A stretch of 64,000 nt of DNA from Allacma fusca. Lineage: Eukaryota; Arthropoda; Collembola; Symphypleona; Sminthuridae. The notes below the pieces were generated by a model. That model made no database searches and was not told where the DNA came from. It saw nothing but the letters and a program-made list of their open reading frames with translations. The stretch spans positions 72,651,067 to 72,715,066 of the forward strand of contig OX359245.1 in assembly GCA_947179485.1 (NCBI GenBank), written 5' to 3'. Both the position numbers and the translations under genes were made by a program. Numbering within the stretch: position 1 is the stretch's first letter; each line of letters starts with the position of its first letter. Positions 16,540-61,964 of the stretch are shown here, piece after piece.

Positions 16540-17075
16540 GGTGTCAAAATATAGTACTGTGAGGCCGGGTCTGGAAAAAGTTCCCTAACCTGCGAACCCG
16601 GTTAGTCGGGGATTTTAGATACCGGGGAAGTAAGCAAATTGTTTGAATTTTCCCCCGCGGGGTCGTCGGGAAAACGCGACCAAGTCTGAATTTTCCCTGG
16701 ATAGGTCGCCGGGTAAAATCGACGAAGTCGAAATTTTTTCGAAAAGGCTGGCAAAGGTCGTCGGGAAAACTCAATGAAGTCGGAAATTTTTTGGAATTTT
16801 CCCTGGCTGGGACGTCGAGAAATATCGACAAAGTCGGAATTTTGCCTGGCTGGGTCGCTGGGTAAAATCGACGAAGTCGAAAAATTTCCGAAAATTTGCC
16901 AAGCGGGGTCGTTAGGAAAACTCGATGAAGTCGGAAATTTTTTGGAAATTTCCCTGGGGAGGACGTCGAGAAATATCGACGAAGTCGGAATTTGGCCGCA
17001 ATTTTCCCTGGTGTGGTCATGGGAAAAATCGACGAAGTCGCAAAACTTCAGAAAATTTGGCTAGCGGGGTTAGAA
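16540..17075. repeat. Degenerate motif array, CGACGAAGTCGG type
   Basis: About 500 bp made of irregular units of 50-80 bp containing the near-palindrome CGACGAAGTCGG (variants CGATGAAGTCGG, CGACAAAGTCGG), AATTTTCCCTGG and GGGTCGTCGGG. It resembles the motif-filled transposons elsewhere in the window, but no terminal inverted repeat or target duplication could be found. ORFs across it are artefacts of the repeat. Confidence 0.75.
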
Positions 17076-17499
17076 TTTCATAAATTTAAATACTACTGAC
17101 AATTTGACATAAATAATTTTATTAGCCATTATGATGCAAATGATGAGGCAAACGGATTTTCAATGACCAAACGATCAAAGTCCTGGGTGTTTGTGGCGGT
17201 CACATTGTTATAAGCGGACACAGTCTGTTGAAGGATCCTTTTCTAAAGTAATAATACAGTGCTGCATTTTTATTTTTTGTACACATTCGCACACTCTGGA
17301 AACTTCGATTTTAGATATTGTTAGCTTCTTTTAGGATTTTCAGTACGTATAGCAAACATTTGAACAAATTAGCATTTTTTGTTATTTGATCTTTCTGCAA
17401 ATTATGGGAATCAACTATTTTCTTGACGGGATATTTCTGGAAAGCTGGTCATAAAAGGTTGCCGTACTAATGCAGTCTCAACGTCGGACAGAATCACAT

Positions 17500-18140
17500 A
17501 CTTATTAGGTATTTCACTTGAGACAAAGATGAGCATATCAGTTTACCTACCTACAATTTCATCGTCACATACTATGAGCCGAGCCTACTTATAAGCCTAG
17601 AAACATTCTCTGCCTACCTACTTTCCTGCATAGGATTTTTGGAATGGCTTCGCCTAGCCAATTTCCTATAATACCTATAAATGCTATTGCCACCTACTTC
17701 TGCCACTTTGAGTAGTTCCTACAACCAATCGTAGAGATGCCACTGTTCTGATTTAATCCCGATTTTATGAAACTACGCTCTGGTCCAAAGCTCAGACCGG
17801 ACCATTGATTTGGTCCAGACGTTTGGACCAGACCAGATCACAGACCGTGGTCAACACTTAACCTTAACTAAACAATGACGTTTGTGCGTGCATGTTATAA
17901 CCGTACATACAAAATTTACGCTGAATAACCAAATAAGGGAGCCCTTGAAATACGTCATGCCTATTTTGCCTACATCTTAGAATTATTTTGATTGCCTATC
18001 CAACATTGCCTATCGGCCACAAGTGCTGGAATGAAAATTTGTTCTTTGCCTATAGCCCATCCTATTTTGGGACCAAAATTTGCTTCCACTATATTTCCTT
18101 GCCTATTTTGTGACCTATTTATAGGCAATGTGGACATCTT
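17500..18140. repeat. Motif-filled repeat, TGCCTATTT/CCTACCTAC type, with a GGTCCAGACC block inside
   Basis: Dense repeats of TACCTACC, GCCTATTT and TATAGGCA. The block at about 17765-17855 instead uses GGTCCAGACC/TGGACCAGACC and looks like a separate insertion. Related TAGGC-rich stretches occur at 41020-41230 and 49320-49520. Ends are not resolved. Confidence 0.6.
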
Positions 18141-18369
18141 TGGTCTGCGGCTTTGCTAATGGCAATGCTAGTTCCTCAACTAAAAGTAGAATATAAATTT
18201 TATTAATAAGGGCATGCAAAATAATGTTACGGTCTCAAATTGGCTGCAAAGATAATTGTATTTTTTACCGAGAACCTCTTCTCGTCTTCGAAGGACCAGC
18301 TTCTTAGAAGCACCTGTGTGAGGTCAGGTTTTTGTTTTTCCTTCTCGCATGTGAAAACCCTTGCTTTCT

Positions 18370-20066: not shown

Positions 20067-21089
20067 CAAATCAGCGGAAGTAAAATTTTAGCCGACATCC
20101 GACATTTGTCGGGAGATTTTAGCCGACAAATGTCGGGCGATTTTCCCCGACATCCGACGCGGGAAAGTTTCTAGCCGACGAGACATTTCGAGATAGTACC
20201 CGACATCCGACATTGTCGGCCAGAATCCACCGACATTGTCGGGAGTTGTATGGATTTTAGCCGACATGTCGGGTGATTTTAGCCGACTTGTGTCGGGTGA
20301 AAGTGGATTCTACCCGACACGTTATTTTTTACAATTCTAGCCGACATCCGACAAAATGTTGATTTTATCCGACATCCGACATATGTCGGGAGATTTTACC
20401 CGACATGAATTTTTTTCTTCTTCCGACATATGTCGGGAGATTTTACCCGACATGATTTTTCTTCTTCTTCCGGCATATGTCGGGAGATTTTACCCGACAT
20501 GATTTTTCTTCTTCTTCCGACATATGTCGGGAGATTTTACCCGACATGAATTTTTTTCTTCTTCCGACATATGTCGGGAGATTTTACCCGACATGACATT
20601 TTTTCTTCTTCCGCAATCGGGAATATGTCGGGAGATTTCAGCCGACATGAATTTTTTCTTCTGACATCCGACATGTCGGGAGATTTTACCCGACATCAAA
20701 TTTTTACTTCTTCCGCAATCGGGAATATGTCGGGAAATTTCAGCCGACATGAATTTTTTCTTCCGCAATCCGGAATATGTCGGGAGATTTCAGCCGACAT
20801 GCAATTTGTACTTCTTCCGCAATCCAGAATATGTCGGGAGATTTCAGCCATCATGAAAAATTGGTTTTCTTCCGATATCCGAAATATGTCTGGAGATTTC
20901 AGCCGACATGAAAATAGTTTTATCTTCCGACTTGTTGGATGCCGTTCAACTATTATTTTGAAGAGGTAAAACTGGGAAAACAGATGTTTTCATATTTCTA
21001 TCGTGTTAACCATTGTCGTTGGATATGAAAACTGATTTTACCTTTCAAGAAAAACAGTCTAAGGGCATTTTTCCGGGAACCGTCCTTTT

Positions 21090-21584
21090 TAGTGTTTCTG
21101 TTCGGTATCGGGAATTACCGAGGCTCCGGTTCGGTTTCGGTTCCGGTACGGTTTCGGGCCAACGTTTTAAAGAACCGTTACATTTCGGTCCGGTTTCGGG
21201 TCATCGGTATATGAACCGTCAAATTTCGGTCCGGTTTCGGGTACAAAAATCAAAATCGAAAGATTTCGGGAATGGTTTGTTAAAGCTGCCGTTTTGGATG
21301 AAAACGCGAAACTTGCATTTGGCCAGCATTTGTCAACTATCATTTGAAAAGGCTATAAAATTTTGGCTTCCATAAAAATGAATCATATACATTTTCTGTC
21401 TGTTTGGAAAGGAAGCGGAACCGGTTCGGGAACCGCTTTTATTTTCCGGATCGGTTCCGGGAAGCCAAAAATGTCCCGGACTCGAAAATATCGGTTCCGG
21501 TTTTGGGAACAGAATTGGGATTTTTTTCGGTTCGGGAAAACGAGTTGAGTCGAGTCCATGTTTTGGTACCGTTCAGAAACACTA
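21090..21584. mobile_element. hAT-like non-autonomous element, GGTTTCGG-filled, 495 bp
   Basis: Ends TAGTGTTTCTGTTCGGTA and, reversed, TAGTGTTTCTGAACGGTA. Target duplication GTCCTTTT at 21082-21089 and 21585-21592. The other foldback arm has a single GTCCTTTT at the equivalent place. The interior is repeated GGTTTCGGG/GGTTCCGG on the way in and out. No ORF of transposase type. Confidence 0.9.
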
Positions 21585-21736
21585 GTCCTTTTTCACTCCT
21601 CTATCATTTTTTTCCGAAGCGTTTGCATTTGAACCACTTTGGCACAAACATTTTGTGCTACAGTAATCGAAACGCATAAAATTTAAGGAATACAGCATTA
21701 GTGACGTAGGAAGGTTATGCTATTCGATCATTTAAG

Positions 21737-22713
21737 TAGTGCTGCGCTCGGGTCAAGTATTTATAAAGATCCGACCACGAACTTGACTTGACCCCGAATT
21801 CTCAAGTACGTATTTCAAGGTTACCCGAACTTGACATTTTCAGTTAAAGTAATACTTGAATGAAACAAGTTCGGGTTTTGAAGTAATTCTCAGATTACTT
21901 GGCCATGATTTTATACGCGCGTTTCGGGTCCAACTTCATTCTGACTTGACCATGACCCGAACTTGACCATGAACTTGAACTTTCAAGTACTTGAAACCTG
22001 ATTTGAAGGACAACAAAATACTTTTGGTGGATTTCAGTGGAGAAAAATTTTTGTTTATAATGAAAGCGAACTTGGGTTTCTAACACACTAGGTTTCACCC
22101 AGCAATTTGCGAGAAACCGCCTCTAAAAATAATGAAATAATGTATTTTTGGTCCCTTTCAATGAATGTATGGTAGTACACTGAAGATCAACTCTTATTTC
22201 GTGTACCGGGTGGGTCTGGTGACTCATTGTCAGTTGACATTTTTGGTGACACAACTCCTTTTAGGTTTTGTTGACACATACTATTATAAACATGGTTGCG
22301 AACATTTTTAAATCAATTTACACGGAGCCATATGAATTTTGAGCGTTCTTTTGTATTTGTGTACACGAACAAATTAACAAATGCCGTTTAAAGTGATGTA
22401 TTAAATGCCGTTTTAAGTTTATGTAGTACAGTGAATCTTAAGTGAATTTAAATTCCCTCAGCCATGAAGAATTGCACAAACAAAATTACTTGAACTTGTA
22501 CACGAAAAACTCAAGTTCGTGGTCAAGTACTTCTTAATTTTTACTTGAACATGACCAAGTACTATGGTTCAAGTAAAATAATTATTTTTAAGTATGAAAT
22601 ACCTGAACACGACTCGAACCGTTCATGGTTTTTAATTTATTTACTTGACCACGACCCGAACGCGAACTTGACTTGAAATACTCGTGTACTACTTGTACTT
22701 GTGAGCAGCTCTG
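21737..22713. mobile_element. hAT-like non-autonomous element, ACTTGACC-filled, 977 bp
   Basis: Ends TAGTGCTGCGCTCGGG and, reversed, CAGAGCTGCTCACAAG. Target duplication CATTTAAG at 21729-21736 and 22714-22721. The unoccupied site is present in the right foldback arm near 23897-23904. Both subterminal zones are filled with ACTTGACC, ACCCGAACTTGA and CAAGTACTTGA. Confidence 0.88.
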
Positions 22714-23181
22714 CATTTAAGTTACCCAAATGACCTCTTACAATTCCCGGGGATAATCCACTGTGAACCGGGTGATACAGGAAATGTCAGATCAATATGG
22801 CCAAACACATTCAAGGTCTCCTCAAAACGCATGTAAGTTAAGAATATTGGAAAATACGATATTTATTTTACCTCTACTCCTATGCTGATGACGGAAATGT
22901 TCTACTACTTGCAAATACTTATTACATGTCTTATAAAACGTGATATTATGTTGTAATTCAATTTAATTTAAAGATCTTCACCTCTTTCATTCTATTTTTG
23001 ATTTTTAAACAATTTTGTGCGTAATCTTTTCATGGATCTGCAAGTATGCAAGTTAATTTTATTTCTACTCGACAACGCTTCTAATTTTTTTACTCTTGAA
23101 TGAAAATATATAATATCAAATATTGCTCTAGCTGGTCAAAATTACAAACTAAGGTGTCATACATTATTACGTATAACGTAC

Positions 23182-23630
23182 TATTGCATATAAACAAATC
23201 TGAATAAAGAACCCGGGTACGAGTACGGGTACGACACATATACCCAAGTATGTGTACAATGTTCGAGTTTTTTCCGGTACGGGTACAATGCTGGTACAGG
23301 TACATAGTTTGAGATTGCATTTCGGTTACGTGTATGAAAAATGTGTACCCGGATTAGGGCATCTACTGGGGACAATTTTTTTGTCCCGTCGACAATTCAG
23401 TCCAGTCCCGAAATCCTCGGGACAACAAAAATCGTCCCGATTCAGTCCCGAAATTACATGGGGACAAAAATTTTGCCCCGAAACTGTCCCGATCCCGTCC
23501 CAAAAACCTCGGGACGTCCTGTCCCTAACCCGGATACTCGGGTATGGGTACGGGTATAGATACCCAATAAAGCAATACCCGCACTTCGCGTACGGATACG
23601 GGAACAGATTTTTCATACAGCACTGGTCAA
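23182..23630. mobile_element. Motif-filled element, GTACGGGTAC type, approximate ends
   Basis: Sits in the foldback spacer. The right end reads CAGTGCTGTATGAAAAATCT inward from about 23624. The left end near 23182 is a degenerate match (ATTGCATATAAACAAATCT). The interior is repeated GGGTACGGGTAC. No target duplication was identified and the ends are uncertain. It contains the 173-bp element below. Confidence 0.55.
23355..23527. mobile_element. hAT-like miniature element, TCGGGAC-filled, 173 bp
   Basis: Begins TAGGGCATCTACTGGGGAC and ends, reversed, TAGGGACAGGACGTCCC. Target duplication ACCCGGAT at 23347-23354 and 23528-23535. It lies within the GTACGGG-type element and is the third nesting level here. 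Internal motif is TCGGGACAA/AGTCCCGA. Confidence 0.85.
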
Positions 23631-23784
23631 TGCCAGCGAAGCTTTTGTGGCAAATACGGGTGTCAGCGTTAATGCTAGACCTGGAGTTTGGATATATAAC
23701 AGCAGTCCCTCTTAAGGTAAAACTGACTGTAAACTCTCTTTTCAGGGACGTTTGAAACCCTTCCCTTGAGGCTAATCCCCCTTA

Positions 23785-25030
23785 CATTCGTTTTGAGGAG
23801 ACCTTGAATGTGTTTGGCCATGGTGATCTGACATTTCCTGGACTTCCCGGTTCACAGTGGATTATCCCCGGGAATTGTAAGAGGTCATTGGGGTAACTTA
23901 AATGATCGAATAGCATAACCTTCCTACGTCACTAATGTTGTATTCCTTAAATTTTATGCATTTCGATTACTGTAGCACAAAATGTTTGTGCCAAAGTGGT
24001 TCAAATGCAAACGCTTCGGAAAAAAATAATCGAGGAGTGTAAAAGGACAGTCCCAGGAAAATGCCCTTAGACTGTTTTTCTTGAAAGGTAAAATCAGTTT
24101 TCATATCCAACGACAATGGTTAACACGATAGAAATATGAAAACATCTGTTTTCCCAGTTTTACCTCTTCAAAATAATAGTTGAACGGCATCCAACAAGTC
24201 GGAAGATAAAACTATTTTCATGTCGGCTGAAATCTCCAGACATATTTCGGATATCGGAAGAAAACCAATTTTTCATGATGGCTGAAATCTCCCGACATGT
24301 CGGATGTCAGAAGAAAAAAATTCATGTCGGCTGAAATCTCCCGACATATTCCGGATTGCGGAAGAAGTACAAATTGCATGTCGGGTAAAATCTCCCGACA
24401 TATTCCCGATTGCGGAAGAAAAAATTCATGTCGGCTGAAATCTCCCGACATATTCCCGATTGCGGAAGAAGAAAAAATGTCATGTCGGGTAAAATCTCCC
24501 GACATATGTCGGAAGAAGAAAAAAATTCATGTCGGGTAAAATCTCCCGACATATGTCGGAAGAAGAAGAAAAATCATGTCGGGTAAAATCTCCCGACATA
24601 TGCCGGAAGAAGAAGAAAAATCATGTCGGGTAAAATCTCCCGACATATGTCGGAAGAAGAAAAAAATTCATGTCGGGTAAAATCTCCCGACATATGTCGG
24701 ATGTCGGATAAAATCAACATTTTGTCGGATGTCGGCTAGAATTGTAAAAAATAACGTGTCGGGTAGAATCCACTTTCACCCGACACAAGTCGGCTAAAAT
24801 CACCCGACATGTCGGCTAAAATCCATACAACTCCCGACAATGTCGGTGGATTCTGGCCGACAATGTCGGATGTCGGGTACTATCTCGAAATGTCTCGTCG
24901 GCTAGAAACTTTCCCGCGTCGGATGTCGGGGAAAATCGCCCGACATTGTCGGCCAAAATCCCATTTTGCCCGACATTTGTCGGCTAAAATCTCCCGACAC
25001 ATGTCGGATGTCGGCTAAAATTTTACTTCC
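23785..25030 (-). repeat. Right inverted arm of the foldback element
   Basis: Uninterrupted partner of the left arm. It preserves the unoccupied target sites of both left-arm insertions (GTCCTTTT and CATTTAAG on the reverse strand) and so acts as an internal control. Confidence 0.88.
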
Positions 25031-27913: not shown

Positions 27914-28805
27914 CAGGAAAAACTCGATATAACGGATGACTCTACAACGGATATTTAGTTACACTGGACAGATTTTTTTGTCCCGGCAAGGCTCCCATAT
28001 AACCAATGCTAAAAATATTGCATACAACGGATATTTGTATAACGGAAAATTTGTTATAGTGGACACTCTTTGAAGCCCTTTGGAAACATTTTGCATGCAT
28101 ATAACGGATTTTAAGCGGAAATTTATTACAAAATAGTCTATTGGCTCTCTTTAACATGTAATCGTTAGCCAAGGCAATTCAAACGTATATTACTCAAATA
28201 TGTATGTAGCAAGAATGGTAATGCTGGGACCTCATCGTTGTACAAACATTTTGGTTGAATGAATAAGAACTCTTGAACACTGGCGAGTGCCAAACTAATT
28301 AGTTTGGATTTATGTCTTGACATATGTATACAGTGCTAAAAGGTCTGAAAAATCAAACATGGAGTTTAAATTTAGGAGAAAAGGCAAGTGTTAGTTTTGA
28401 AATTCAAAGTGGGAATTCTCAAACTCAAGTATCCATAGATCGTGCTCTATCATCATCCAGAGTGAATGATATTTGGAGGAAATTGTTTAAGTGATCACCT
28501 AAAAATGGACCAAAATGATAAAAGCCCAGCAACCAATAACTACGTTTATGCGTGTCGATGAATAATTATTGTACTTATGTATTTAATCAATTCAATGTTT
28601 CTACAGTTGATTAATTATTATGTTATTAGTCTGGTGTTTCCATGTTGTATTTCGATGAATTTAAGTCAATATTCGTAATTAGCCTTGTTTGCCATTTCGG
28701 AAATTATATAACGGATTTTATCCGTTATATGCATACAACGGACATTGTTTATAGCGAACAAATTTTACCGGTCCCCTGGGAATCCGTTATATCGAGTTTT
28801 TCCTG
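27914..28805. mobile_element. pogo/Tigger-like non-autonomous element, 892 bp
   Basis: Inverted ends CAGGAAAAACTCGATATAAC (20+ bp, with CGGAT following) and TA target duplication at 27912-27913 and 28806-28807. The related segment near 40230 lacks the insertion and reads continuously through a single TA. The CTCGATATAACG-type terminus is the hallmark of Tc1/mariner pogo/Tigger elements. The interior carries repeated ATAACGGAT motifs and no transposase ORF. Confidence 0.9.
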
Positions 28806-31500: not shown

Positions 31501-32267
31501 CATACATGGGCATTAAGTCAACCCTCGCCCTCCCCTCACGAGGCAGTCAAAATATGTGGTCATGCCCTCCCTCACAAACCCTCGCGCGACATCTACCAGA
31601 TGGCCCTCACACTCTCTCTCGTGAGCACCAATTTATAAAACACAGCCCTCTCCCTCGTTAACGTGAGTGCCACTCCCAACGTGAATTGTTCTTATTTAAT
31701 GTCATTAAAATAATTGATTTGTAACGGGTTTCCATATTAAGTATTTAAAATAAATATAATACAAAACAATATTAGTTGGTGAAAAAATTAAAAGTGAATT
31801 CCAAAAAAAAATTATCAAGGTGTCTTGTAGACAACCAGGTTGATTTACGCCACTAATTTTGGTTTAGTGTAAAATTTTGACTTACTTATACAAATGTAGA
31901 AAGAAGGAAATGGGGTAGATTTGGGATGTCATGAAATGGATAACCATGCTGATCCGTAAATTTTTTGAACTTTGGAAATGACTTTTGACAATATAGGACA
32001 TAATTTGTGTAGATTTGAGTTGCGTGATGACGTTATAATGTTGGAATATTTTTGTACTCAATTGTTCCGATTTTTTCCAAATGAGGGCATCAATAGCACT
32101 CTCCATCGTCCTCATTTACAGACATGTCTTCTTTTGCCCCTCAGCCTCATTTTAATGAGTGCATTCATGTTAAGCTTGTACTCTCCATCATGCCTCTATT
32201 TTAGGAGGGATGAGGCAGAGGCAGAGGGCCATCAATGCCTCATCCCTCGTGAGGGTGCCCATCTGTG
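31501..32267. mobile_element. hAT-like non-autonomous element, CCCTC/GAGGG-filled, 767 bp
   Basis: Ends CATACATGGGCA and, reversed, CACAGATGGGCA. Target duplication GTGTTTAC at 31493-31500 and 32268-32275. Both ends carry repeated CCCTCACGAGG, CCTCATCCCTC and similar. It lies downstream of the chemoreceptor gene, in the part missing from the second duplicon. Confidence 0.88.
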
Positions 32268-40345: not shown

Positions 40346-40419
40346 GGTACAACATATTTTTAAAGCGAAGCGCTTTTGTAAAATTGCTCGTTTTTGATTT
40401 TGTCCTTCTAAAGGCTTCC

Positions 40420-43855: not shown

Positions 43856-44127
43856 TGTTACGACATTATTAGAATAACTATAGTTGTTATTATTGAGTCA
43901 AACAATTATTGCTAGTTTTAGAAATAATGAATTATAATATTATGAAAGATATTCACCAATACTTACTACACGATGCTTAGCTAACTAAATGACTACAATC
44001 TATTCTGTTGAATAAATTAAGGGAGGTGATTCCTGGTTTAGCTCTTGACATAACTTGACCTATCTTTACTACTCTCTACCACTGAGCCACCCTACACTAT
44101 TTCACTCATACATTTTACATTCCTACA
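43856..44127 (+). repeat. 5' LTR of nested element
   Basis: 272 bp, starts TGTTACGACATTATTAG, ends ACATTCCTACA. Followed by AGGTGCGGG, a candidate primer-binding zone shared with the outer element, though it does not begin with the usual TGG. Confidence 0.92.
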
Positions 44128-44845: not shown

Positions 44846-45820
44846 ATGACTTCATTCTTACCGAACGAAATATTCTCCAACATTCCCACCTACGATGGAC
44901 AATCATCATGCAAAACTTGGCTGAAATCCTTAAACTACCGATGTACCCATTTCAAACTGACTGACAAATGGAAAATCGAAAATATGGATTATTTACTCAA
45001 AGGAACTGCTCTACATTGGTGGAATTTTTCCAACGACAATTTTCTAGAGAATTTAAATATTGCTAACTCCCAACTACGTTTCAAGGAATTTGAAGAACAA
45101 ATCCAGAACGCATTTTCAGAAAAAGACGATAAAGCCATTGCTACAGCAGAAAATTCAACCACTGTATTTCATGCTGAAACAGACAACGCTCGCGATTACA
45201 TTTACAAGAAATTAAGTATCTTTAAACGTATGGACCCTACAATGACTGACTCCTGTAAACTCGACTACCTATACCAAGGACTACCTCAAGATCTGGCCTG
45301 GAATTTACAACTAAAACTTGGCGCTGACGGTACCATTGAACAATTTCAAAAACACTTAGATTTCTCTACCTCTAAATTACAATCCCACAACGCTCAACTA
45401 CTGCAACAACAACATCCAACAGACATGGCCAAACTTTATGAATTCCCAATAAGAAACACTAGTCAGCCACAACTTCAAACTCTGAATATGCATATACCGA
45501 CAGACCAGATACCAGCTGAACTACCCCAAACAATTACAACTACATCCCACACTTGTCCATTCTGTAATACAAACACCCACCAACTACGCCACCGCTATAC
45601 GTTCAAACGATGGCTAAATGAGACTAATATCGTTACCAGCAACCCAAATAATAACTATCAACGACGAAACGACCCTACAACTCAACAACAATTTGGACAA
45701 CTCGACCAACAATTTCCTAATCACAGGCCAAATCAACTTAATCATCTAAATACAATCTACGATTCAATCAGTGACCACTACCCTTCAAATGAGGACCAAT
45801 ACTGGCGATCGGAAAACTAA
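44846..45820 (+). CDS. Gag protein of the nested LTR element
   Basis: 324 codons from an ATG. The N-terminal part (KTWLKSLNYRCTHF, ALHWWNF, FEEQIQNAF, YLYQGLPQDLAW) follows the Ty3-type capsid layout also seen in the outer element. The zinc-knuckle position reads CPFCNTNTHQLRHRY, where the last cysteine of CX2CX4HX4C is an arginine. The glutamine/asparagine-rich tail is typical. The frame ends at 45820. Confidence 0.8.
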   Translation: MTSFLPNEIFSNIPTYDGQSSCKTWLKSLNYRCTHFKLTDKWKIENMDYLLKGTALHWWNFSNDNFLENLNIANSQLRFKEFEEQIQNAFSEKDDKAIATAENSTTVFHAETDNARDYIYKKLSIFKRMDPTMTDSCKLDYLYQGLPQDLAWNLQLKLGADGTIEQFQKHLDFSTSKLQSHNAQLLQQQHPTDMAKLYEFPIRNTSQPQLQTLNMHIPTDQIPAELPQTITTTSHTCPFCNTNTHQLRHRYTFKRWLNETNIVTSNPNNNYQRRNDPTTQQQFGQLDQQFPNHRPNQLNHLNTIYDSISDHYPSNEDQYWRSEN

Positions 45821-45828
45821 ATCGCCTG

Positions 45829-46260
45829 GTGAAGAAGGGAGATCATCAGGCTACACAACAAGTCATCACGGAAACCTCCCACCGTATCAGCAATTCTAGA
45901 ACCAACCCAAAGCTCATCCCATTAATGTCAATTGTATTTGATAGTCCTCCCACTCCCCCGCGAAAACGGAAACATCCGCCTTCGTTATCCCTTATTCCCA
46001 AAACGTTCCCCAACTCTCCATATACCCCAGATTATCCCCGTTACTTCCCGCGACAAGGATCTGATCCACGACATCACCGATTTCATCCCACTACCAAGCA
46101 AAATATCTTCAACTCCCAATATCCAAGCATCCAACAACCCCTACCTGTTCTAGACGATCTACAACGACACATGATGAAAATTAGCACACTACCCCGCACA
46201 ACTTTAAAAAATGCAAAATCCAGCAAGCGAATAATTAATCACTCCTTATTTCCCAACTAG
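45829..46260 (+). CDS. Proline-rich ORF downstream of gag in the nested element
   Basis: 143 codons opening 8 bp after the gag stop, rich in P, S, R and H (PPTPPRKRKHPPS). Unrecognised. Likely the separated C-terminal part of the gag frame or a remnant of a Gag-Pol linker; no protease motif. The stop falls just before TAAAAGCCCCGTGCTTCG, where sequence character changes. Confidence 0.4.
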   Translation: MKKGDHQATQQVITETSHRISNSRTNPKLIPLMSIVFDSPPTPPRKRKHPPSLSLIPKTFPNSPYTPDYPRYFPRQGSDPRHHRFHPTTKQNIFNSQYPSIQQPLPVLDDLQRHMMKISTLPRTTLKNAKSSKRIINHSLFPN

Positions 46261-47404
46261 TAAAAGCCCCGTGCTTCGCACAGGAGCAATTACTTGTGTA
46301 AATAAATAGTGTAAATAATAAAAGTGTAAATGGCAATAAATCTCGTATCAAGGTCTGTCGAGAAGGATTAATATTGATATCCCGCTTCGCCAGGCAAAGT
46401 AATCTCATATAAGAAGTGAAGTATTAACTGCAAGACTAACAATTCGTTTCATATAGGTAGTTGGCAATTCATCATCAAAATATTATGGAACAGCTTCCGG
46501 CCCACTAAAGTTTTTTCCCAAACTCAATATTGACTATACACGTGGAATTTAACTAATCGCTTGATCAGTTTAATACCAACGTCGTTATTAAATCTTGCTG
46601 TTGCATCACTGTATGGTGCTTCACCCCTTATTGTTAGTGGATCAGCACACCGTGCTGATCAAATATGATTTTTTGTTATTATAATTTGTATATAGATCCG
46701 TTGTACCGCAATATTGTAACTCAGACAACTAAGCCTCAGACACTGGACGCACTGATTATTTAAAATGAAAGGATTTCATATTAGCGCAACACATTTAACT
46801 TGCTATAGTTACTAAAGTCCATGGTTCCTACAAATCCATTTTACATCCGAATGATATTTTTATGGATATAAAGATCAAAACTCTGGATGCTAAGGCTTGT
46901 AATTATTCTTCCTAATAAGAATCCCACACTAATGTGAACTAAGTTCAGTCATTAAAATTCTCCTCTTATCAAATTATTCAGTACTGTAACCGAACGTAGT
47001 TTTTATCACTACCAGTCTTAATTTAATCCAAATTTGATGATTTATGTCTGATGTTTATAATAATTATGGTTAGCGCTGTTAAGTGATAATCTAAAATGGC
47101 GTAATATTGCGAGCTTCCAGTATGCTGCAAGCAGTTGGTATATGCCGAGAAGAACAGCGAGCTGAGCGAGCTGAAAAACCTCTCCACTGCGACAGAGTTT
47201 CAGCTTTCAGCCCGCTGTGCTTCTCGGCTTGTTGTATATACCACCGACTTGCTTGGCTGTATAGTAAATCAGCCGGGAGGGTTTGAATTTGTGAAATAAG
47301 CCGCGAAGGTTTGAATTGTACTACAAACGCGCGAAGGTTTAAATCAACAGAAGTGCTCAATAATAATAAAGGATTATTCATACAGTCTACCCCAAACAAA
47401 TAAT
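46261..47404. other. Non-coding insert region within the nested LTR element
   Basis: Unlike the flanking gag-like DNA. It contains GGTGCTTCACCCCTTATTG followed by the palindrome GATCAGCACACCGTGCTGATC near 46641-46661. This type of block recurs near 32755-32805 and 34995-35045, so it is probably a dispersed repeat terminus. It also holds the 130-bp hairpin described separately. Confidence 0.5.
47127..47258. repeat. Imperfect 130-bp palindrome (hairpin)
   Basis: Left half carries AAGCAGTTGGTATATGCCGA and AGAAGAACAGCG. The right half carries the complement CGCTGTGCTTCTCGGC and ATATACCACCGACTTGCTT. The loop is around CCTCTCCACTGCGACAGAG. Could be a miniature foldback repeat or a structured transcript; no evidence separates these. 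Confidence 0.7.
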
Positions 47405-47704
47405 TTGAGAGAAATTAGGAAACAACATAGATGGAATAACCAACATACACATCATCATCAGAACAACTCCAATAAAAGACATGCCAAATTCCCAAGAAAG
47501 GACTTACAACAACGAAGACACTTTAGAAACCACTATACAGAGAACAATAACTACCCTGCCCACACTTTACGAATCTCCACAAACACAACAATACCACCAA
47601 CTTGTTCATTCTGTAATACTGGCAATCACAAATTACGTGACTGTTATGCCTTCAGACAATGGATAACAATGCATTCAAGAACACCACGAATTCTACCAGA
47701 ATAA
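47405..47704 (+). pseudogene. Second gag fragment with intact zinc knuckle
   Basis: About 99 codons without a clear start, carrying CSFCNTGNHKLRDCY, a proper CX2CX4HX4C knuckle, followed by FRQWI. It resembles the knuckle region of the upstream Gag (which has lost its last cysteine). It looks like the tail of a second gag copy joined just upstream of the 3' LTR, so the nested element may be a recombinant. Confidence 0.65.
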
Positions 47705-47818
47705 ATGCGAATTAGTTAATTTCCAATCCATTGCTATGACCAGACGTGCTTAACCTATAACACTCCCATGACGGAGAGATGTTCCAGTCTCAAAACACCC
47801 CACCCCGGGAAGGAGAAG

Positions 47819-48090
47819 TGTTACGACATTATTAGAATAACTATAGTTGTTATTATTGAGTCAAACAATTATTGCTAGTTTTAGAAATAATGAATTATAA
47901 TATTATGAAAGATATTCACCAATACTTACTACACGATGCTTAGCTAACTAAATGACTACAATCTATTCTGTTGAATAAATTAAGGGAGGTGATTCCTGGT
48001 TTAGCTCTTGACATAACTTGACCTATCTTTACTACTCTCTACCACTGAGCCACCCTACACTATTTCACTCATACATTTTACATTCCTACA
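47819..48090 (+). repeat. 3' LTR of nested element
   Basis: 272 bp, no difference from the 5' LTR seen by eye. Followed by target copy ATAT at 48091-48094. Confidence 0.92.
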
Positions 48091-48131
48091 ATATCTGATA
48101 TATATATGTTACGTTACCTTAAAAAACCATT

Positions 48132-49053
48132 TTGGGGAAAGTACATGTAGATATTGAATTTGAAAAGTATTTAATTCCTAAGTGTAATAAAAATCTAAAA
48201 TCTATTAACTCGTTCACAATGGACAATGTTAATCCGGATAAACTCCGAGACTACCAAAACCATCCGGTTGACCCTGATATAGACACCCAAGAGTTTTCCG
48301 AACATTTATCGGAGGGCCAGGTGTTAACTTTGAAGCGTTTGTTGTCAAAGTACAGAAAAGCCTTCGCTTTTCAATCCGGGGAAATTGGTTGCACAGATTT
48401 GGTTAAATTTTATATAGAACTACAAGATGATACTCCTTATGCTACCCGCCCTTATAGAGTTTCCCCGGCAGAGTGGAAAGAAATTGACCGTCAAATCCGG
48501 GAGTTGTTAGATAACGGTATTATAGAACCCTCAAACTCCCCATGGGCTGCTCCTGTTATTTTAAATCGGAAATCTGATGGTTCTTATCGTATGGCAGTTG
48601 ACACCCGCATCCTTAATTCCAAGACTAAGAAAATTGCTTATGTACTTCCCAGACAAGATGAAATATTTGACGCTTTTGTCGGATTTAAGTATGCTTCGTT
48701 TCTTGATTTTCTTAGTGCCTTCCACCAAATTGAGTGTACGGAGAGAGCAAAAGAATCCAGTCGACTCATTTGTCTATAGACGGATGTCATTTGAATTAAA
48801 AGGAGCCCCGAAAGGTTATCAAGATTTAATGTTAAAATTATTAGGTAAACTGGCGTGGGAGGTCTGGTTAAAACCAGCAGTGTTTTCTCACAATATAAGT
48901 ATTAGTTCAGTATCAAAATATTCTCCTTTTTATTTGATCTACGGTGTGACCCAACACTTTCGTGCGACAGTAATTTTCCCACCATTGATTTATTTAAGGA
49001 TGATTATGATCCACATAAAATTAGAAATAGAACTGAAGCTGCAACAACAATAG
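48132..49053 (+). pseudogene. Reverse transcriptase and integrase remnants of the outer element
   Basis: Residues typical of Ty3 Pol: the RPYRVSP entry motif, IIEPSNSPWAAPVIL, then SYRMAVDTRILN, and SFLDFLSAFHQI (first catalytic aspartate). A frameshift near 48775 moves the frame to the one containing FELKGAPKGYQDLM. The YxDD region, RNase H and most of integrase are gone. Directly after comes an integrase-end scrap (YSPFYLIYG). Not functional. Confidence 0.85.
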
Positions 49054-49203
49054 CTTCTGATAATACAAATGAAGTTAGAGCTGCAGAAAAACGAAGATTC
49101 GACAAAAGTCATCCCCCGAATTTATTTAATGTGGGTGATAAAACATTCTTTTCCATTTTACTTTTCTTCCCCTGCTTTATTCACCTCCCATATAACTCCG
49201 TAA

Positions 49204-49908
49204 ATATGTTCCGCTAGTAATAGTTATGTATCATGTGTACTTTGTTACTACACGGGTAGTAAATATACACATTGTAAAGTATTAATAATGTATACATAAT
49301 TATCCCGGGGTTTAAGGGAAAGTAATGTCTTCTAGGCTAAGGCAATTTCTAGGCAGGCGGTCCCTAATGCTAATAGCCTATATAGGATTATAGACAGGCA
49401 CTTGTCGCCACCAGCCTTGAGGGATAGGGGCATAAATCGTAAATTGAAAGTTTGGGCCTATAAGGGGGCCGCAGAAGATTTTAATATTATAGGCAGGATA
49501 TAGGCTAGGGTAATGAAAAGGCCCACCTTTGGTATTGGCAACGTAATGAACAAATTACACCGTCGACGCAGTGAAATCTCAAACTTTAAAGTTACAATTT
49601 TGTTTTCATGGAAATGTTTTCGATGATGACAACGTATAAAATACCTTCCACACAAAGACCAGAAAATAGGACTCATGATGAGAGCTGGGATATATTTCCC
49701 ACTCAAAAATTGCACGTTCAATGACATTTCCAAAAAAAGCAAAATTAACGGTTATTTTATCAACCTACTTTACTCTAAACATACATTTCGCGTTAACAAC
49801 TACCCAACCAGCCAAAATTACAGCTTCCAATCGACCTCACACTAGCGAGGCAGTAGCACTTCGCTTCTGTTGCAATCGATTCATCGATTGAAATTTTGGA
49901 TTTTTATT
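49204..49908. other. Intergenic with TAGGC-rich repeat
   Basis: 49320-49520 holds repeated TAGGCTA, ATAGGCAGG and GCCTATA motifs similar to 41020-41230. The rest is AT-rich. No gene recognised. Confidence 0.5.
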
Positions 49909-52637: not shown

Positions 52638-52641
52638 GTAG

Positions 52642-53622
52642 TAGAGCTTCCTTCGGGTTTCCGAAATCCCGAAGTTCCGTGTTCGGAAACGGAACGGAAC
52701 AATTTCGGAACATTCTTTTTGATTCCGTCATTGAATCGGGACAAAACAGGAACATGAGCACTTGTACCGATAATATCGGGACCGGGACGGTTCAGAGCAT
52801 CGGTGCGAAAAATGTCCCATATAATTTATTTCACCGGAAAGCGGAATTGTTCTGTTCCGTTCCGAACCGATCCCGGTACAATTTCTGAAGTGTCGCGCCA
52901 TCGTTCAACTAGAATGGAAACACATTTCTTATCGCTCTGGCTTGTAAGCAGTTTTTTGCCAAAATAACGAAATTGGATGAACACAGTTAGATTTAATTTA
53001 CGCAAATGCTTATATGTAATGCGAGTATCGTTTTCCATGAAAATCAACAGAATAACTAATTTTGTTTAATAAACATGGGCATGGGCGATTTTTCTTGAAA
53101 TGAAAATTCTGAAATCGAAATTATTAGCAGCAATGAAGCAAGCTTGCAGGAAATTAACACTGTTAGGCCATTGAAGTCCACACGCTACAAATATTTATTG
53201 CTAAAAAATAATTAATAATAATTTTATAATACTGCACAGTAGTTCTTTTTATGTGGCCTAATTATTATTAAATATTATTTTATATAATTAAATAATAGCA
53301 TTCCCTAGCATCCAATCTATTAAAAGTGTATCATGTATATTAAGTTTTCAGTAATTTGTACACGCGTTTCATGTATATGTTGTGAAAAATTCCGGGATAT
53401 TTCGGAACGGAACGGGTTCGGAACGGAAAAACTGGCATAATACGGAACGGAACACAACCTGTAACGGAAAAAATACTTTACTCCTTTGTTCCGAACGGTG
53501 TCAGTTCAAATGTTCCGATGTCCCGACAGCCGGAACGGAACCGGGAACAATATTATTTGTAGGTTTCGGAACGGAACGGAATTTCGTACGGAACAAAAAT
53601 GTTGAACACGTTGGAAGCTCTA
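52642..53622. mobile_element. hAT-like non-autonomous element, CGGAACGGAA-filled, 981 bp
   Basis: Ends TAGAGCTTCC and, reversed, TAGAGCTTCC. Target duplication ATATGTAG at 52634-52641 and 53623-53630. About 200 bp at each end is GGAACGGAAC/TTCCGTTCCG repeats, with an AT-rich middle. It inserted at the edge of the 367-bp element, so it is younger. Confidence 0.9.
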
Positions 53623-55241: not shown

Positions 55242-56226
55242 CTATAGCTCCTCACGGGTCGAGTAGGTATCCATACCGTACTCGTACTTGGAATCGTACT
55301 CGAATTGTAGGGCCAAATTCCCGCTTGACCCGGACTTGTGTCTTCAAGTTAGAGTAAAAAATCTTTTACTCGGAGGACGGTATTATATTTCTTAATTTTT
55401 TACCGAACATGGACCGTATTTACGAGTATGAAACGTTTATACCGACCGACCCGTACTCGAACCGTACTCCAGTATCAAGTACGCCGAAAAAAAATTGTTT
55501 TATACATTATTTTTTGTTTAAGAGAGATTGACGTAGACTGCAAGTACTAAATTCAGCTAACAAGGATTTTTAACTGCAACTTACGAACAGTGTTTGCAAT
55601 GAAGATTTTCTCCAACGAGATTAAAATGCTGATGAACTATAGATCAAGATTTGATACTGCCAGTCACATCGACTGGATTCTCTTCAGTCAGGTCAATCTC
55701 AAACCTCAAATAATTCTGCACTATTCTCCGGTTCCATGATATTTTACGGCGATAGGTCCTTAAGTACAGTATTACTCCTTTCGGCGCTGTAACAATAACT
55801 TATAGCAACGTAATCAAGTGTTGACTCACTCATATGACACTGTAGGTGCAACGATTTATTCAATTCGTAGTCATTTTGAATTTAACCGCTTTTCCTTTCT
55901 CACTTCGGAATAACAACTTTTTTGTAATCAAGGATATATGGATGTACACTTCGTGCTGGAGGAAATTACTCGATTATCTCGTATAAATACAAGTACGGGT
56001 TCAAGTACTCGTGAATTTATGTCCCGAGCTTGTACTCGTGCTTTGGTTTAAGTACTTTGAACGTACTCCTACTCGCTCTGATACTCGTTAGAAATATACT
56101 CAAGTTCGAGTACGAGAACGGATACTCGACCGATGAGTACAAGTCTCAATCTTTAATTGATACCGTACTTGACCAGTACTCGAACTCGAAACTCGAGAAT
56201 CTACTCGAACTCGTGAGGAGCTATAG
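55242..56226. mobile_element. Motif-filled element, ACTCGTACTCG type, 985 bp
   Basis: Inverted ends CTATAGCTCCTCACG on both sides, with direct flanks TACAAA (55236-55241 and 56227-56232). Subterminal zones are repeated CGTACTCGAA and GAGTACGAG. The middle is AT-rich. The flank may be a degenerate 8-bp duplication, of which only six bases match exactly. It lies directly upstream of the first acyltransferase gene. Confidence 0.82.
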
Positions 56227-57996: not shown

Positions 57997-59459
57997 GCAA
58001 ATTAAATTTTCCAGCACACAATTTTAGCTGGATCACAAAAAGATACTTTCCAAAATTATATCGAGAATACGGCATGTCATATGGTCCAGTACAACAATAA
58101 AGTTTTTAAAAATTTGATAATTTTTTAAAAAAGAATATTTGTATGGTCGGAGTAATTCCCATATTAAGCCTGGGCTAAAGGGGAGAAATAATACAGGGAT
58201 CCCCGATAAATAATTTACTATTTAAGTTCTTTAGCATACGCACCAGCACCCCAACCGATGGTAGGGGTTTCTATATGGTGTGAGTTTGCAGTCAATAGAT
58301 AATAAGAAAGGACAATACGAACTAAAATTTCTGTGAATTTGTTTTCGAATGTCTTCTAGTGCATTATTAAAGTACGACCCTGAATAATACTGTGTAATAA
58401 GCATGACAAGTGATGGCAACTTGTAAGGAATATTCAATCTTGTGAGATCCTACCGACGATTCATTTATTTCTGATATCATATCATACATTAACATATTAT
58501 CAACATATCCTCTGAATTTTAAAACTTTACAATCTGTAATGAATAGACGCATAAATCATGTATGTAAATAGGCATACCTAGATACGTCATGATACATATG
58601 ATATCTAACGTTAGAAATTTTTTGTAATACATATTTTTTCTGGTAATTTCCAGCATTCAATAGTATATTGGATTCATATATCTTCCGTGCATGCATTGTG
58701 GTATTTCTGGTGGCTATCCCATGACTCGATCAGCAACGGGCACATTAAGACAAAAATTAACGTTGGGGTTGTACAAAATTTCATGATAATTCATATGCGA
58801 TTGATACGATCTTCCCCAGTCAACAATTTTATTCCAGTACCCAGAATTGAAGATCTGAGGCAATCTTTACAATATTTTAGAAGGTGTGGCAACGTTTTTG
58901 AGGCGTAGAAAATGGATTAGTGTTTATGTGACACATGTGTCAAATTTATTCACATCTGTTTGTGGCTTTTTCCAATTTCGCTATCATTTAGTTTGAGTTT
59001 TTACAAGTATTATTGTACAGTTGAAAACTCCTTAGATTTTCTGTTTTACTTCCTGATTTGTGAGAATATTTCGATTAATGATTACCAATTTGCAATTTTA
59101 GAGTTAGTTCTTCGAAACACCCGCTAAATATATCTCCGTATCTCCAGTTGAATTAAAAGCCACCAAGCTTCTGCTCATTAAGTCTTGCATGAAAGATTTA
59201 CTACGAAAATTTATCTTTCAAATACACAGAAAATAATGCAACATTAATTTGCAAATGATGTCTTTAGTAGGGCAGGGGCTTTTATATAGTTTTATTTATA
59301 AAATTAGGTATATCTTTACGTTAATCTTATCTAACAAAAAAGATAAGCGTGCAAGTATAAGTTCGCATTTCAGCTCACATTTGACTTTAAACCTAGGTGT
59401 TTCTCACAAACATCAGCTCTAAATTTTCACAAGTAGAAAGACAAAACGTATGTCTCAAA
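57997..59459. other. Spacer between the two acyltransferase genes
   Basis: AT-rich, no gene recognised. The last about 120 bp (GCAAGTATAAGTTCGCA onward) resembles the DNA just before copy 1, showing that the duplication included the 5' flank. Confidence 0.5.
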
Positions 59460-61964
59460 ATGTTTTTCTCCCGCTTCATTTATTTTAACATCCTAGTGTC
59501 AGTCACTGCAGATATTTCTAGTACTTGGACCAGTTCAGTTCAAAACCGAAAAATTCCGATTCGGTTCAGTTCAGTTCAGTTTGATTCATTATAAACACAG
59601 TTCAGTTCAGCTGTTGAACTGAACTGAACAGTTCGATTCAGTATTTGAATCGAAATGAACCGTATAATGCAAACTGCAGTTCAAACAGTTTGCAAACGGG
59701 CTCCTTGCTGGAAATGTCGCCACCACCGTACATTCGTATCTGTCATTCCCATGTATAGTTAATTAACGAATAATCAACAGTTTTTTAATTACTTTACATA
59801 TTATTTCAAAAATGTTCTTTTCATAATAATATGGGGGGGGGTTGCCGGACCAAACTTAGGGCTAAAGAAGTTCGAACTAACTATTTTTAAAACTTCAACA
59901 AGTACTTAAAATTCTGGTTTGATTATGGAGCGAAAAAAATTAAAATTTAAACGAATCCTAAGGAAAATGTAGATACTGAATTCGCCCAAAGATGTAATGC
60001 TAAAAGGAAGCAATCTATTACGGATTACTAAACGTTGATTCTGAAACATAGGGCCATTCCAGTGTACATTACCATCATCAAGATCATATCATTTGTGCAT
60101 TCTCCAGTGCACTGTATGCTATGGTGAATGCGATTAGGAACAGGTTAAGAGGGAAAAAATCTGTTTTTCTGGGATTGACTCGGATGACTAAATTCGGATC
60201 TTTATGTGTGTACACCCGCAATTATTATTGTTTACCAAACACTGCTACTGAATTGTTTGATTCACCGATTCAGTTCAGTTCATCAGGTAAAACTGAACTG
60301 AACTGAACTTTTTTTGCTTGAACTGAACCGAAACCGAATTTTCGTTTCAGTTCACTGCTCAAACTGAACTGAACTGCAAATTTTGAATCGAACTGAACTG
60401 TTCCGAGTACTAGATATTTCCTTACTATTGTCTGCAATACTAGTTTTCCCATACCGAGTTTTTGTATACATCTTAGCTAGGATCTTTAAATCACACTTGA
60501 AGGAATTTGTCACAGGTGGTGCTCACTTATTTTGTCATCCACACGTAGGGGAACATTTCTTTCCTTCCACAATTACGGTTACGGTAACTGTTGCTGGAAA
60601 TATTGACAGTGAAGATTTCAGGGAATTGTTTCATCAGAGAATTCTACATCATGGACACAACGATGTAAATCATCCTTTCCGACGCTTTCAAAGAACTAAT
60701 GACAGTTTCATGGGCTACTGGTTTTGGATCGACGAAGTCAATTTCAATCTGAAACAACACATTCGAGTTCTAAAATCTGAAGAAGAATATTTCGCTGATG
60801 ATAGAAATTTTCTGAAGGAAATTCTAATCAAACTTTCGCAAGAGCCTTGGAATAAAAACCGAAGTCCTTGGGAAATAGTTTTAGTTCCCTGTAAAAATTT
60901 TCACACCTTATTGATTACAAGGTGGCATCATTCTATAGGTGACGGAATATCAATGTCAAAAGTTATGCGTCTATTATTAGAGTCTAAAACCCAATTCCCA
61001 TTTGAAAAGAACGAAACAAGAAAGGATTTACAATTTTCTCCAAAACTTTTGCTCGACATCCCACGTGATACTGCCAAAGCCCGAAAGTGGTCATTTGAAA
61101 CTTTTCCGATTTCCCAGGACACACTACAAAGCGGAATTTCATTTACGAAGCCTTTCTCAATTGAAGCAATTAAAGGAATTATGTCTCTTCATAGGACATC
61201 ATTTCAAGCTGTCCTGTCGGCTGCAGTAGGCAGTGCAATGCAAAGAGCTCTCGAGGATTCCCCACAACCACAATCAATTCCAAAATATGTCGATAACGGT
61301 GTTCCGTTAAAAACGCGGAAACGCGCGGGACACATGACGAATCACTTGTAAGTTACAGCTATTTAAAATTCAGACAATTTAAATTTCCTGTAAATTAGTG
61401 CATTAAATTGAACTAACTTGGTTTTTATTTGAGTTCAGCCTTCCAGTCATTTTACCGCTCCTGGTTGAGTGTCCATCTTTGAAAACACGTTTGCTGAAGG
61501 AGGAGGAGATGTTCCAAGATATGAAAAATTCCAGTTTTCCTCTGGCTCAATATTATAGGGTCAATGTTGCAAGCATTTTGCCGACTTTACTTCGAGATTG
61601 GTTTTTGGCTTTCAGTTTTGAAAGGTGGACGTCAATGGTGAGCAACTTCCCGTACTTTGGGAAGATGACGCTGTTAGGAAAGGATGTTGTGGATCTGATG
61701 GCTATTCAACAAGCCATTCCAGGAGCATTTGGTAATAATACAGATTATAACAGTTGTGCAGACACTAAATCTTACTGCTACTACCAATGAATGTACGGCT
61801 GCATGTGTTTTTCTTGATTTCATTTAGATATAACTGTTATTACAACCGGGTGTCTTAACCGAATCAGGTTCGGAGTCTCAACGACGCACGGTCACCCCAT
61901 TGACAGTGAACAGCACTGCAAATACCTGGAACTTGAAATGGAAAAATTGATCAATTTAGAGTAA
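59460..61964 (+). pseudogene. WS/DGAT-like O-acyltransferase, copy 2, exon 1 split by a transposon
   Basis: Exons 59460-61347 (containing the transposon at 59519-60412 plus one extra target copy), 61439-61731 and 61828-61964. Without the insertion the frame is open for 471 residues, a usual length for this family. It starts MFFSRFIYFN, has an N-terminal membrane-like segment, HHSIGDG as the HHxxxDG catalytic motif, RSPWEIV, VSNFPYFGKMTLLGK and NRIRFGVS. The insertion follows codon 19 and brings a stop within about 25 codons, so a normal full-length product is not expected unless the insert is spliced out or a start inside it is used. Introns follow GT-AG. Highly similar to copy 1, with separate damage. 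Confidence 0.82.
59519..60412. mobile_element. hAT-like non-autonomous element, CAGTTCAGTT-filled, 894 bp
   Basis: Ends TAGTACTTGGACCAGTTCAG and, reversed, TAGTACTCGGAACAGTTCAG. Target duplication GATATTTC at 59511-59518 and 60413-60420. The paralogous gene copy is uninterrupted here. Both ends are made of CAGTTCAGTT/AACTGAACTG repeats mixed with ACCGAAACCGAA. No transposase. Confidence 0.92.

Follow-up and report, generated by a model that had tools for sequence, protein, structure and literature searches.

Private word arrays at the ends of hAT-type transposons in a 64-kb region of the Allacma fusca genome

A 64-kb stretch of the genome of the springtail Allacma fusca (contig OX359245.1, positions 72,651,067 to 72,715,066; hereafter the window, within an examined genome of 392.7 Mb in 91 contigs) holds a series of transposon-like elements that each carry many copies of one short degenerate word, and the question raised by this locus is what these words do. 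An earlier note had gathered about ten such elements into one hAT-like class and had suggested that their words could be transposase-binding sites, extremely amplified, perhaps through competition for the enzyme. Our reading of the DNA, to which we assign a probability of roughly 0.83, is that these are hAT ends, in which a cut inverted tip is followed by a 150-250 bp array of irregularly spaced words that would be read by the transposase of the family, and that the elements are probably Ds-like non-autonomous members. The binding-site part of the suggestion is thus kept, since the words appear to behave as family-specific end-recognition sites, and amplification by competition is not supported.

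Private words occupy the two ends of the hAT-type elements

The enrichment of short words was assayed both with exact words and with de novo motifs. Across the window, the commonest exact 7-mer per 400 bp reached at least five copies in 70 of 637 segments, compared with 7 of 480 shuffled segments. The elements hold the greater part of these 70 word-rich segments, and the remaining ones fall in a 30-bp tandem repeat at about 6 kb, an AT microsatellite at about 32.5 kb and stretches at about 29.1 and 40.3-40.9 kb. De novo motifs, each scored against 10 dinucleotide shuffles, gave z values of 3.8 to 15.1 in 12 elements (Table 1) and of -0.6 to 1.8 in six control stretches, an enrichment over shuffled sequence of the kind that the earlier note had proposed to measure. 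In seven hAT-tipped elements (E3, E4, E6, E7, E10, E11 and E12) the private word stands far above shuffles. A scan of viral contigs for the words returned no hits.

The position of the words was determined in the same seven elements, where 162 of 177 sites lie no more than 250 bp from an end (E3, at 495 bp, is uninformative in this respect). The elements are therefore not filled by their motif, as had been described; the word-occupied part measures about 150-250 bp per end, and E3, E5 and E8 are too short for a visible middle. The description of the words as GC-rich holds for some of them and fails for AACTGAAC, ACTTGAAC and ATAGGC.

The privacy of the words was evaluated by training a motif on one end and counting its sites in the others. 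The left-end motif found its highest count in the right end of its own element in six of the seven cases, and exceeded all 50 shuffles in six of seven; the exception in count was E11, with six sites in an end of E4 and five in its own. Reciprocally, the right-end motif was highest or tied in its own left end in all seven elements and exceeded all shuffles in five, whereas E3 equalled the shuffle maximum and E7, with two sites, stayed below it. These results indicate that the words are private to their elements. Nevertheless, the left and right arrays aligned no better than block-shuffled sequence in the seven hAT-type elements and in a TA-flanked element of the window. The two ends of an element have a common vocabulary, not a common sequence, and because words are shared in this way without alignment, an origin of one array by recent copying from the opposite end was considered and excluded. 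A private word at both of two unalignable ends also speaks against the proposal that slippage within transposons produced the arrays as simple-sequence or satellite expansions, without a role in mobility, as does the absence of E4, E6, E7, E10, E11 and E12 from the Tandem Repeats Finder output.

Genome copies retain the ends and the target-site duplications

hAT tips start with YA, commonly YAG/CA, and the window elements carry short inverted tips of this kind (TAGTG, TAGAG, TAGTA, TATAG and CAnA). Among the 8-bp target-site duplications (TSDs) listed in the earlier note, those of E3, E4, E5, E6, E7, E10 and E12 are exact, while CAAATCAG is really a 9-bp duplication, CAAATCAGC, around the foldback element E2; two more were found, at E9 and, with 7 of 8 bases matching, at E11. 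A blind scan of the window for TSDs joined to terminal inverted repeats (TIRs) yielded nine pairs at k=8, five of which are elements, against a mean of 3.4 and a maximum of 8 in 30 shuffles, and was dropped as evidence since it barely exceeds the shuffles. The convincing evidence for mobility is the genome copies, not the window scan.

Each genome search scored about 40 candidates, so that copy numbers are lower bounds, and the window copy is included unless stated. E10 was found in at least 40 places, every one spanning bases 1-981 at 99-100% identity, with an exact TSD in 29 of 30 copies, the window copy included. E3 likewise has at least 40 places, every one spanning 1-495 at 96-100% identity, and an exact TSD in nine of ten other copies, two of the ten sharing one target. 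For E12 (at least 40 places, 25 spanning 1-894 at 86-100% identity) and E11 (at least 40 places, 27 of which come to within 4 bases of each end), nine of ten other copies have an exact TSD. The at least 40 places of E6 include many partial ones, mostly at 76-91% identity; seven of ten other copies have an exact TSD, and one of the three misses becomes exact if a lost tip base is allowed for. The left tip of the window copy of E6 itself lacks a few bases relative to the family tip, TAGTGCCCCTCATGGGTACA. E4 has at least 40 places, 38 of them spanning 1-977, and 33 of the 40 score nearly alike against the window copy (88% identity, length about 1000 bp), and these near-equal scores suggest a recent burst. 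All six E4 copies inspected have an exact TSD, three of them the CATTTAAG of the window, because these three lie inside copies of the foldback element. E7 has 14 full-length copies, the window copy included, at 84-100% identity, and the TSD evidence for E5, E7 and E9 comes from the window copy alone. The expectation that genome copies would keep the ends and the 8-bp duplications was thus borne out for E3, E4, E6, E10, E11 and E12.

Gene-bearing hAT elements carry arrays of the same kind

Next, hAT genes were sought genome-wide through their dimerisation domain, for which 150 of 860 candidates were scored, all above the cut-off. An array was called in the 700 bp past the stop codon when none of 40 shuffles reached it and z was at least 3, and by this measure 15 of 30 hAT loci have an array 3′ of the gene. 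Several of these loci are copies of one family, and the array after L018, and possibly that after L023, belongs to a neighbouring element, which at L018 is E4-like. Among eight further hAT genes with long frames, L186, L187, L189 and L191 exceeded all 30 shuffles; the best-scoring array at L191 is that of a neighbouring element, its own array being of AACCG type by eye. L192 has a weak array, equalled by 1 of 30 shuffles, and none was seen at L185, L188 and L190. About ten distinct words stand beside hAT genes: CGGATAGGA, ACCACTACT, CTCTATT, GAAGGAAGG, AAGGCAA, CCCTCA, ATAGGCAAG, CGGTTCGG, AACCGTTTT and GACTGA.

Two elements, A1 and A2, are the complete ones among five hAT loci whose upstream side was examined. 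Each combines the hAT dimerisation domain, TIRs and an 8-bp TSD on one element, which places it in the superfamily, and each has arrays of its word at both ends (Table 1); the left array of L071 lies at the edge of the examined stretch. As the ends of gene-bearing elements are built alike, the words most probably serve as docking sites for the mobilising enzymes.

Motifs trained on the window elements were then applied to the 3′ flanks of 38 hAT genes, with shuffle maxima taken over 380 shuffles. The E3 word scores highest at L186 (8 sites, shuffle maximum 4); the E7 word at L038 and L022 (6 and 5 sites, maximum 3), with 4 sites at L009; and the E9 word at L010 (5 sites, maximum 4). By eye, the tip of L022 resembles that of E7, and the L010 tip, CAGTGATGGGCAC, resembles that of E9. 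The top hit of the E4, E8 and E11 words is the neighbouring element at L018 (4 sites for E11, maximum 3), and the E5, E6, E10 and E12 words give nothing beyond shuffles in the 38 flanks. For the window families it is thus the word alone that recurs beside hAT genes, in E3, E7 and E9, and shared ends were seen outside the window, in the miniature relatives of A1. A 6.3-kb element at C8:26424331-26430661 has E7 ends with 5.8 kb between them and is a candidate gene-bearing E7 relative. E7-like right ends 7.2-7.3 kb upstream of L019-L021 are a coordinate hint that was not confirmed, and the parts of these loci that were examined show no E7 match above shuffles.

These comparisons bear on whether the words could be sites of host proteins, for example of promoter, insulator or silencing factors. 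Arrays could act for such proteins at any distance from the tip; no result of the analysis favours this. As the word varies by family, while being the same at both ends and in the gene-bearing relative, a common host factor does not fit, and hAT proteins studied elsewhere bind words of this kind at the ends of their own elements (PMC8097297). We consider this the least probable of the explanations weighed here.

A1 and its miniature relatives share only the arrays

A query with the left end of A1 found three relatives at 96-99% identity, two of them adjoining listed hAT genes, and at least 36 places at 82-85% identity that match the first 238-261 bases only. Five of these A1-type miniatures were examined: four measure 939-943 bp from tip to tip, and for the fifth no right tip was found. 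One copy, studied in detail, has 84% identity to A1 over its first 260 bp and 88% over its last 236 bp, and its middle is unrelated, with 0 of 143 12-mers in common. At 6 bits, A1 has 16 + 15 sites, compared with 16-17 + 14-15 in four copies of the miniature; at 7.5 bits, the counts are 16 + 15 and 16-17 + 13-14, respectively. A comparison of A1 with the miniature shows changes at 29 of 292 site bases and at 43 of 175 spacer bases (Fisher p 3.4e-5). By analogy, this is the arrangement of Ac and Ds2 (PMC3260210).

The sharing of the arrays alone and the equal site numbers support transposase-binding ends and speak against the suggested amplification of binding sites in gene-less elements through competition for transposase. 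The dense arrays of gene-less families with many copies would suit such competition. Miniatures with more sites than their gene-bearing relative, which were looked for, are ruled out in one matched pair by the equal counts (16 + 15 in A1, 16-17 + 13-15 in the miniatures), and gene-bearing elements with other words carry arrays as well, which makes amplification by competition improbable. The A1 comparison also counts against slippage, in that sites change less than spacers and the arrays alone are common to both elements.

Arrays change more slowly than the middles of the elements

The divergence of the arrays was followed by comparing the window copy with six E4, five E12 and four E11 copies; copies within a family are not independent, and p values carry no correction for multiple tests. 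In 14 of the 15 comparisons, the arrays show lower divergence than the middles, for example E4/L134 (19/472 vs 45/455, p 4e-4), E12/L140 (13/312 vs 63/529, p 1e-4) and E11/L146 (36/471 vs 59/465, p 0.01). Within the arrays, a site base being one that lies within a site in either compared copy, site bases are less diverged than spacers in all five E12 and all four E11 comparisons, as in E12/L140 (3/173 vs 10/139, p 0.02) and E11/L147 (20/232 vs 36/239, p 0.03).

Local growth of arrays was also observed: a 48-bp unit is in tandem in a single E6-like copy (L149) and a 25-bp unit in an E11-like copy (L145). Such tandem pieces in single copies favour the slippage explanation, as do a tandem array at L015, the lack of excess conservation at E4 sites and a spacer identity slightly raised at lags 40-42 (0.30 vs about 0.27). 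Against the evidence on privacy and on A1 given above, these points leave slippage without a role in mobility unlikely, with a chance that is small and still the largest among the alternatives.

The words share a common spacing

The distances between words were then compared across families. Of 167 pairs of neighbouring sites that lie within 40 bp, 58 have a separation of 10-12 bp, and in 11 window elements the favoured same-strand distances are 5-6, 11, 31, 36 and 41 bp, with z values against jittered sites of 9.7/5.2 (5-6), 4.4 (11), 4.3 (31), 4.5 (36) and 6.3 (41). A test that used no motifs placed lag 41 above z 2 in 9 of 16 window ends. The lag set 5, 6, 11, 17, 25, 31, 36, 41 was fixed from the window beforehand and applied to eight array ends of six gene-bearing elements with other words, among which the L024 end is a by-eye pick and not a significant array. 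The mean z was 2.19 compared with 0.51 at other lags, a result matched by 5 of 20000 random lag sets, and lag 41 exceeded z 2 in six of the eight ends. Lags 5, 6, 11, 36 and 41 held in the gene-bearing ends, 25 and 31 were weak and 17 failed; the unpredicted lags 10, 20, 30 and 40 were also raised there. Taken by itself, the triple 31, 36, 41 was matched by 316 of 20000 random triples. Bases at lag 41 are identical in 44% of cases for sites and in 30% for spacers.

The spacing pattern may be due either to the way in which transposase is arranged on the DNA or to old tandem duplication in steps of about 36-41 bp. A more far-reaching reading, which we hold to be rather doubtful, is a two-layer code: a family-specific word would lie on a common lattice (about 5-6, 11, 31, 36 and 41 bp) dictated by transposase assembly geometry, and a transposase could switch its word, the lattice being kept and the sites at both ends being replaced in step. 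If this were true, the genome would be a natural table of enzyme-word pairs, with about ten words beside hAT genes and seven more in the gene-less families of the window.

Discussion

The design of the ends seen here is already known, so the elements do not form a class without a name, as had been supposed; it is that of hAT ends such as those of Ac/Ds and Hermes. In maize Ac/Ds, AAACGG repeats within about 200 bp of the end are bound by transposase (PMC3260210). Ac/Ds, and Ds2 especially, resembles the present elements in its 8-bp duplications, 11-bp tips, subterminal repeats over ~200 bp and gene-less members with unrelated filler (PMC3260210), and an anatomy of Ac/Ds type, with word arrays clustered at the ends and unrelated filler in gene-less members, appears to recur in the A1 miniature and the window elements. 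Unlike Ac/Ds, many families are present here, each with another word, about 8-17 sites per end and a spacing common across words. Three hexamers are enough in Ac/Ds, and some hexamer-bearing Ds-like elements are immobile (PMC3260210). Hermes needs about 220 bp per end, has 17 and 14 putative 4-bp sites that its BED domains bind, and is alike in the ~220-bp length of its ends and in an asymmetric arrangement of sites between the ends; the words here are longer, denser and family-specific, and most inner sites of Hermes seem dispensable (PMC10368747). Four hAT proteins have distinct measured words that match the subterminal regions of their own elements (PMC8097297), which makes binding the expected reading. 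The hAT-derived CGG-binding proteins and hAT-19-type transposases resemble our elements in having specific words, often with CGG, that match their own subterminal regions, and differ in that they come from protein-array data on selected proteins (PMC8097297), whereas the words here were read from the DNA of one genome. Tol2 likewise has terminal regions of 150-200 bp with tips and subterminal repeats (PMC8151067), the repeats being of a different type. A less usual feature of A. fusca is that one genome holds so many private words, densely packed and with a common spacing; searches of the open-licence literature found no description of such spacing or of such a word set in one genome.

Taken together, the mechanism that we propose is as follows. 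The window elements would be non-autonomous, Ds-like members of many hAT families, and the word of each family would most likely be read by the BED zinc-finger domain of its own transposase. The array at each end would gather several transposase subunits, whereupon the tips would be cut and rejoined, and the array would give the family its identity. Arrays presumably grow by tandem duplication and then decay except at the sites. The avidity implied in the gathering of subunits is the weakest step of this mechanism.

Several observations weigh against transposase-read arrays as the general explanation. The zf-BED matches in A1 and A2 (E 0.09 and 0.076) are below the Pfam cut-off. A clear array was not found in the 700 bp 3′ of 15 of the 30 hAT genes and of at least three of the eight further ones; the left arrays of L070 and L073 were not found within ~3.5 kb upstream; and the word of E5, E6, E10, E11 or E12 is the own array of a hAT gene in 0 of 38 flanks. 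Of the five A1 miniatures, two have an exact TSD, one has a TSD with a mismatch, one has none and one has no right end found. Regarding divergence, E11/L147 is the exception to slower array change (arrays 56/471, middle 56/478), the difference between sites and spacers in E11/L146 is not significant (14/225 vs 22/246, p 0.30), and E4 sites are less diverged in two of six comparisons and more diverged in four (E4/L134 12/232 vs 7/240, p 0.25). Finally, in the Hermes complex the BED domains hold three left-end sites only, about 70% of activity is left when the inner putative sites are mutated, and its authors consider the binding of extra transposases along the ends unlikely (PMC10368747); this inner-site result weakens the avidity step and lowered our confidence in the mechanism.

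How transposases and the specificity of their ends change together is an old question with few natural series, and a genome of this kind, whose many hAT families can still be recognised in gene-bearing and gene-less forms, makes it testable, as the word can be read from the DNA and matched to the DNA-binding domain of the adjoining gene. A common spacing, if genome-wide, would be the footprint of the grip of a transposase assembly on an end. For annotation, an array beside a hAT gene would mark the end of the element and its miniature relatives.

Elements outside the hAT class and other features of the window

A single hAT class for all the elements grouped in the earlier note is ruled out by the 9-bp duplication and alignable arms of E2 and by the TA flanks of the element at 27.9-28.8 kb. 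The common architecture holds for seven elements and fails for E2, for the TA-flanked element and for the array near 16540, for which no hAT boundaries were found.

A duplication of 9 bp is of the Mutator-type length. The exact 9-bp TSD of E2 recurs in three of five other copies (the third by eye), and its long arms align with a score of 159 compared with 62 for block-shuffled sequence. With this duplication and these long inverted arms, E2 is a foldback element with a duplication of Mutator-type length, as expected of a Mutator-like or foldback element. Drosophila Galileo/Foldback is alike in its very long repetitive arms, for which several transposase sites have been proposed to give specificity (PMC3688188); E2 differs in its 9-bp duplication. 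Foldback copies that appear to carry E4 as a passenger, and E3 too in at least one, lie at C1:70368238-70373264, from C5:1429062 onward and at C12:25535809-25539531; their pieces stand in a common order, and the E4 duplication is identical among them. A satellite-like run of many consecutive foldback arms (about query 293-863) occupies C10:32193017-32199172.

The TA-flanked element occupies at least 40 places, the one in the window included, and 36 of the others start at query base 1 and end at 886-888. TA precedes CAGG at all ten tips inspected on one side and at nine of ten on the opposite side, and by these flanks and its inverted tips the element is classed from its sequence as Tc1/mariner-type. 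Its ends carry arrays of the same design, which is therefore not limited to hAT elements. The array near 16540 also has copies in the genome; the left side could be placed in five of seven loci, in which similarity extends left of 16540, and no hAT ends were found in its loci.

Table 1. Elements of the window, and two gene-bearing hAT elements (A1, A2) elsewhere in the genome, with their duplications, ends, words and motif z values.
Element	Position	Strand	Length (bp)	Type	TSD	Tips or TIR	Word	z	Remarks
E9b	17540..18145	.		second ATAGGC-word stretch		right tip CAAAGATGTCCAC	ATAGGC	5.7	left boundary not established
E2	20076..25030	.	4955	foldback	CAAATCAGC (9 bp)	long inverted arms	CCGACATnTGTCGG units		E3, E4, E5 inside
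E3	21090..21584	.	495	non-autonomous hAT-type	GTCCTTTT	TAGTGTTTCTG	CCGAAAC / CGGTTCGG	6.6	
E4	21737..22713	.	977	non-autonomous hAT-type	CATTTAAG	TAGTGCTGCGCTC / CAGAGCTGCTCAC	ACTTGAAC		foldback passenger
E5	23355..23527	.	173		ACCCGGAT	TAGGG	GTCCCGA	5.2	
TA-flanked	27914..28805	.		not hAT	TA flanks	CAGGAAAAACTCGATATAACGG	ATAACGGA at both ends	3.8	
E7	31501..32267	.	767	non-autonomous hAT-type	GTGTTTAC	CATACATGGGCA / CACAGATGGGCA	CCCTCAC	6.8	
E6	35993..37460	.	1468	non-autonomous hAT-type	CCCAGAAG		GGGTACA / TACAGGTAC	10.5	
E8	38680..38925	.		short array		hAT-like right tip CAGAGCACTGCTGCC (by eye)	ACTTGACT	5.1	left boundary and TSD not established
E9	41012..49531	.		hAT-type ends	GTATTGGC	CAAATGTGGGC / CAAAGGTGGGCC	ATAGGC		split by retroelement-like insertions
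E10	52642..53622	.	981	young non-autonomous hAT-type	ATATGTAG	TAGAGCTTCC	CGGAAC		
E11	55243..56225	.		non-autonomous hAT-type	ATACAAAC/GTACAAAC (7/8)	TATAGCTCCTCACG	CGAGTACG	15.1	
E12	59519..60412	.	894	non-autonomous hAT-type	GATATTTC	TAGTACTCGGA (family form)	AACTGAAC		
A1	C9:21627328-21630666			gene-bearing hAT	ATTGTACT (exact)	TAAGGTTCTCAACGG	CGGATAGGA, both ends		dimerisation domain E 6.8e-16
A2	C9:2570701-2574310			gene-bearing hAT	GTAGAAAG (exact)	CAGTCATGGGCA	AAGGCAA, both ends		dimerisation domain E 1.5e-16

The host of E5 is a GGGTAC-rich element at about 23205-23640. E9 is interrupted at 41300-49250 by retroelement-like pieces of gag, protease and reverse transcriptase, and two direct copies of one repeat lie inside it at about 43860-44140 and 47820-48095 (by eye). 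The reverse-transcriptase and aspartyl-protease matches at 42-49 kb are both below the Pfam cut-offs, and we read this stretch as Gypsy-like. Pfam matches above the cut-off among the open frames of the window are a protein kinase, an LMBR1-like membrane protein and a wax-ester-synthase-like enzyme. On the minus strand, a 207-codon open frame without a Pfam match occupies 18889-19512; similar text lies near 33.6 kb, 52.2 kb and 53.6 kb (by eye), and the frame may be part of a large repeat that received the foldback element. Finally, a perfect inverted repeat, CGTCGCTGAAGAGGCAAAATGG, at 52270-52636 encloses GCAAAATGG words at steps of ~32 bp, no 8-bp duplication being seen around it, and its right edge is the insertion point of E10.

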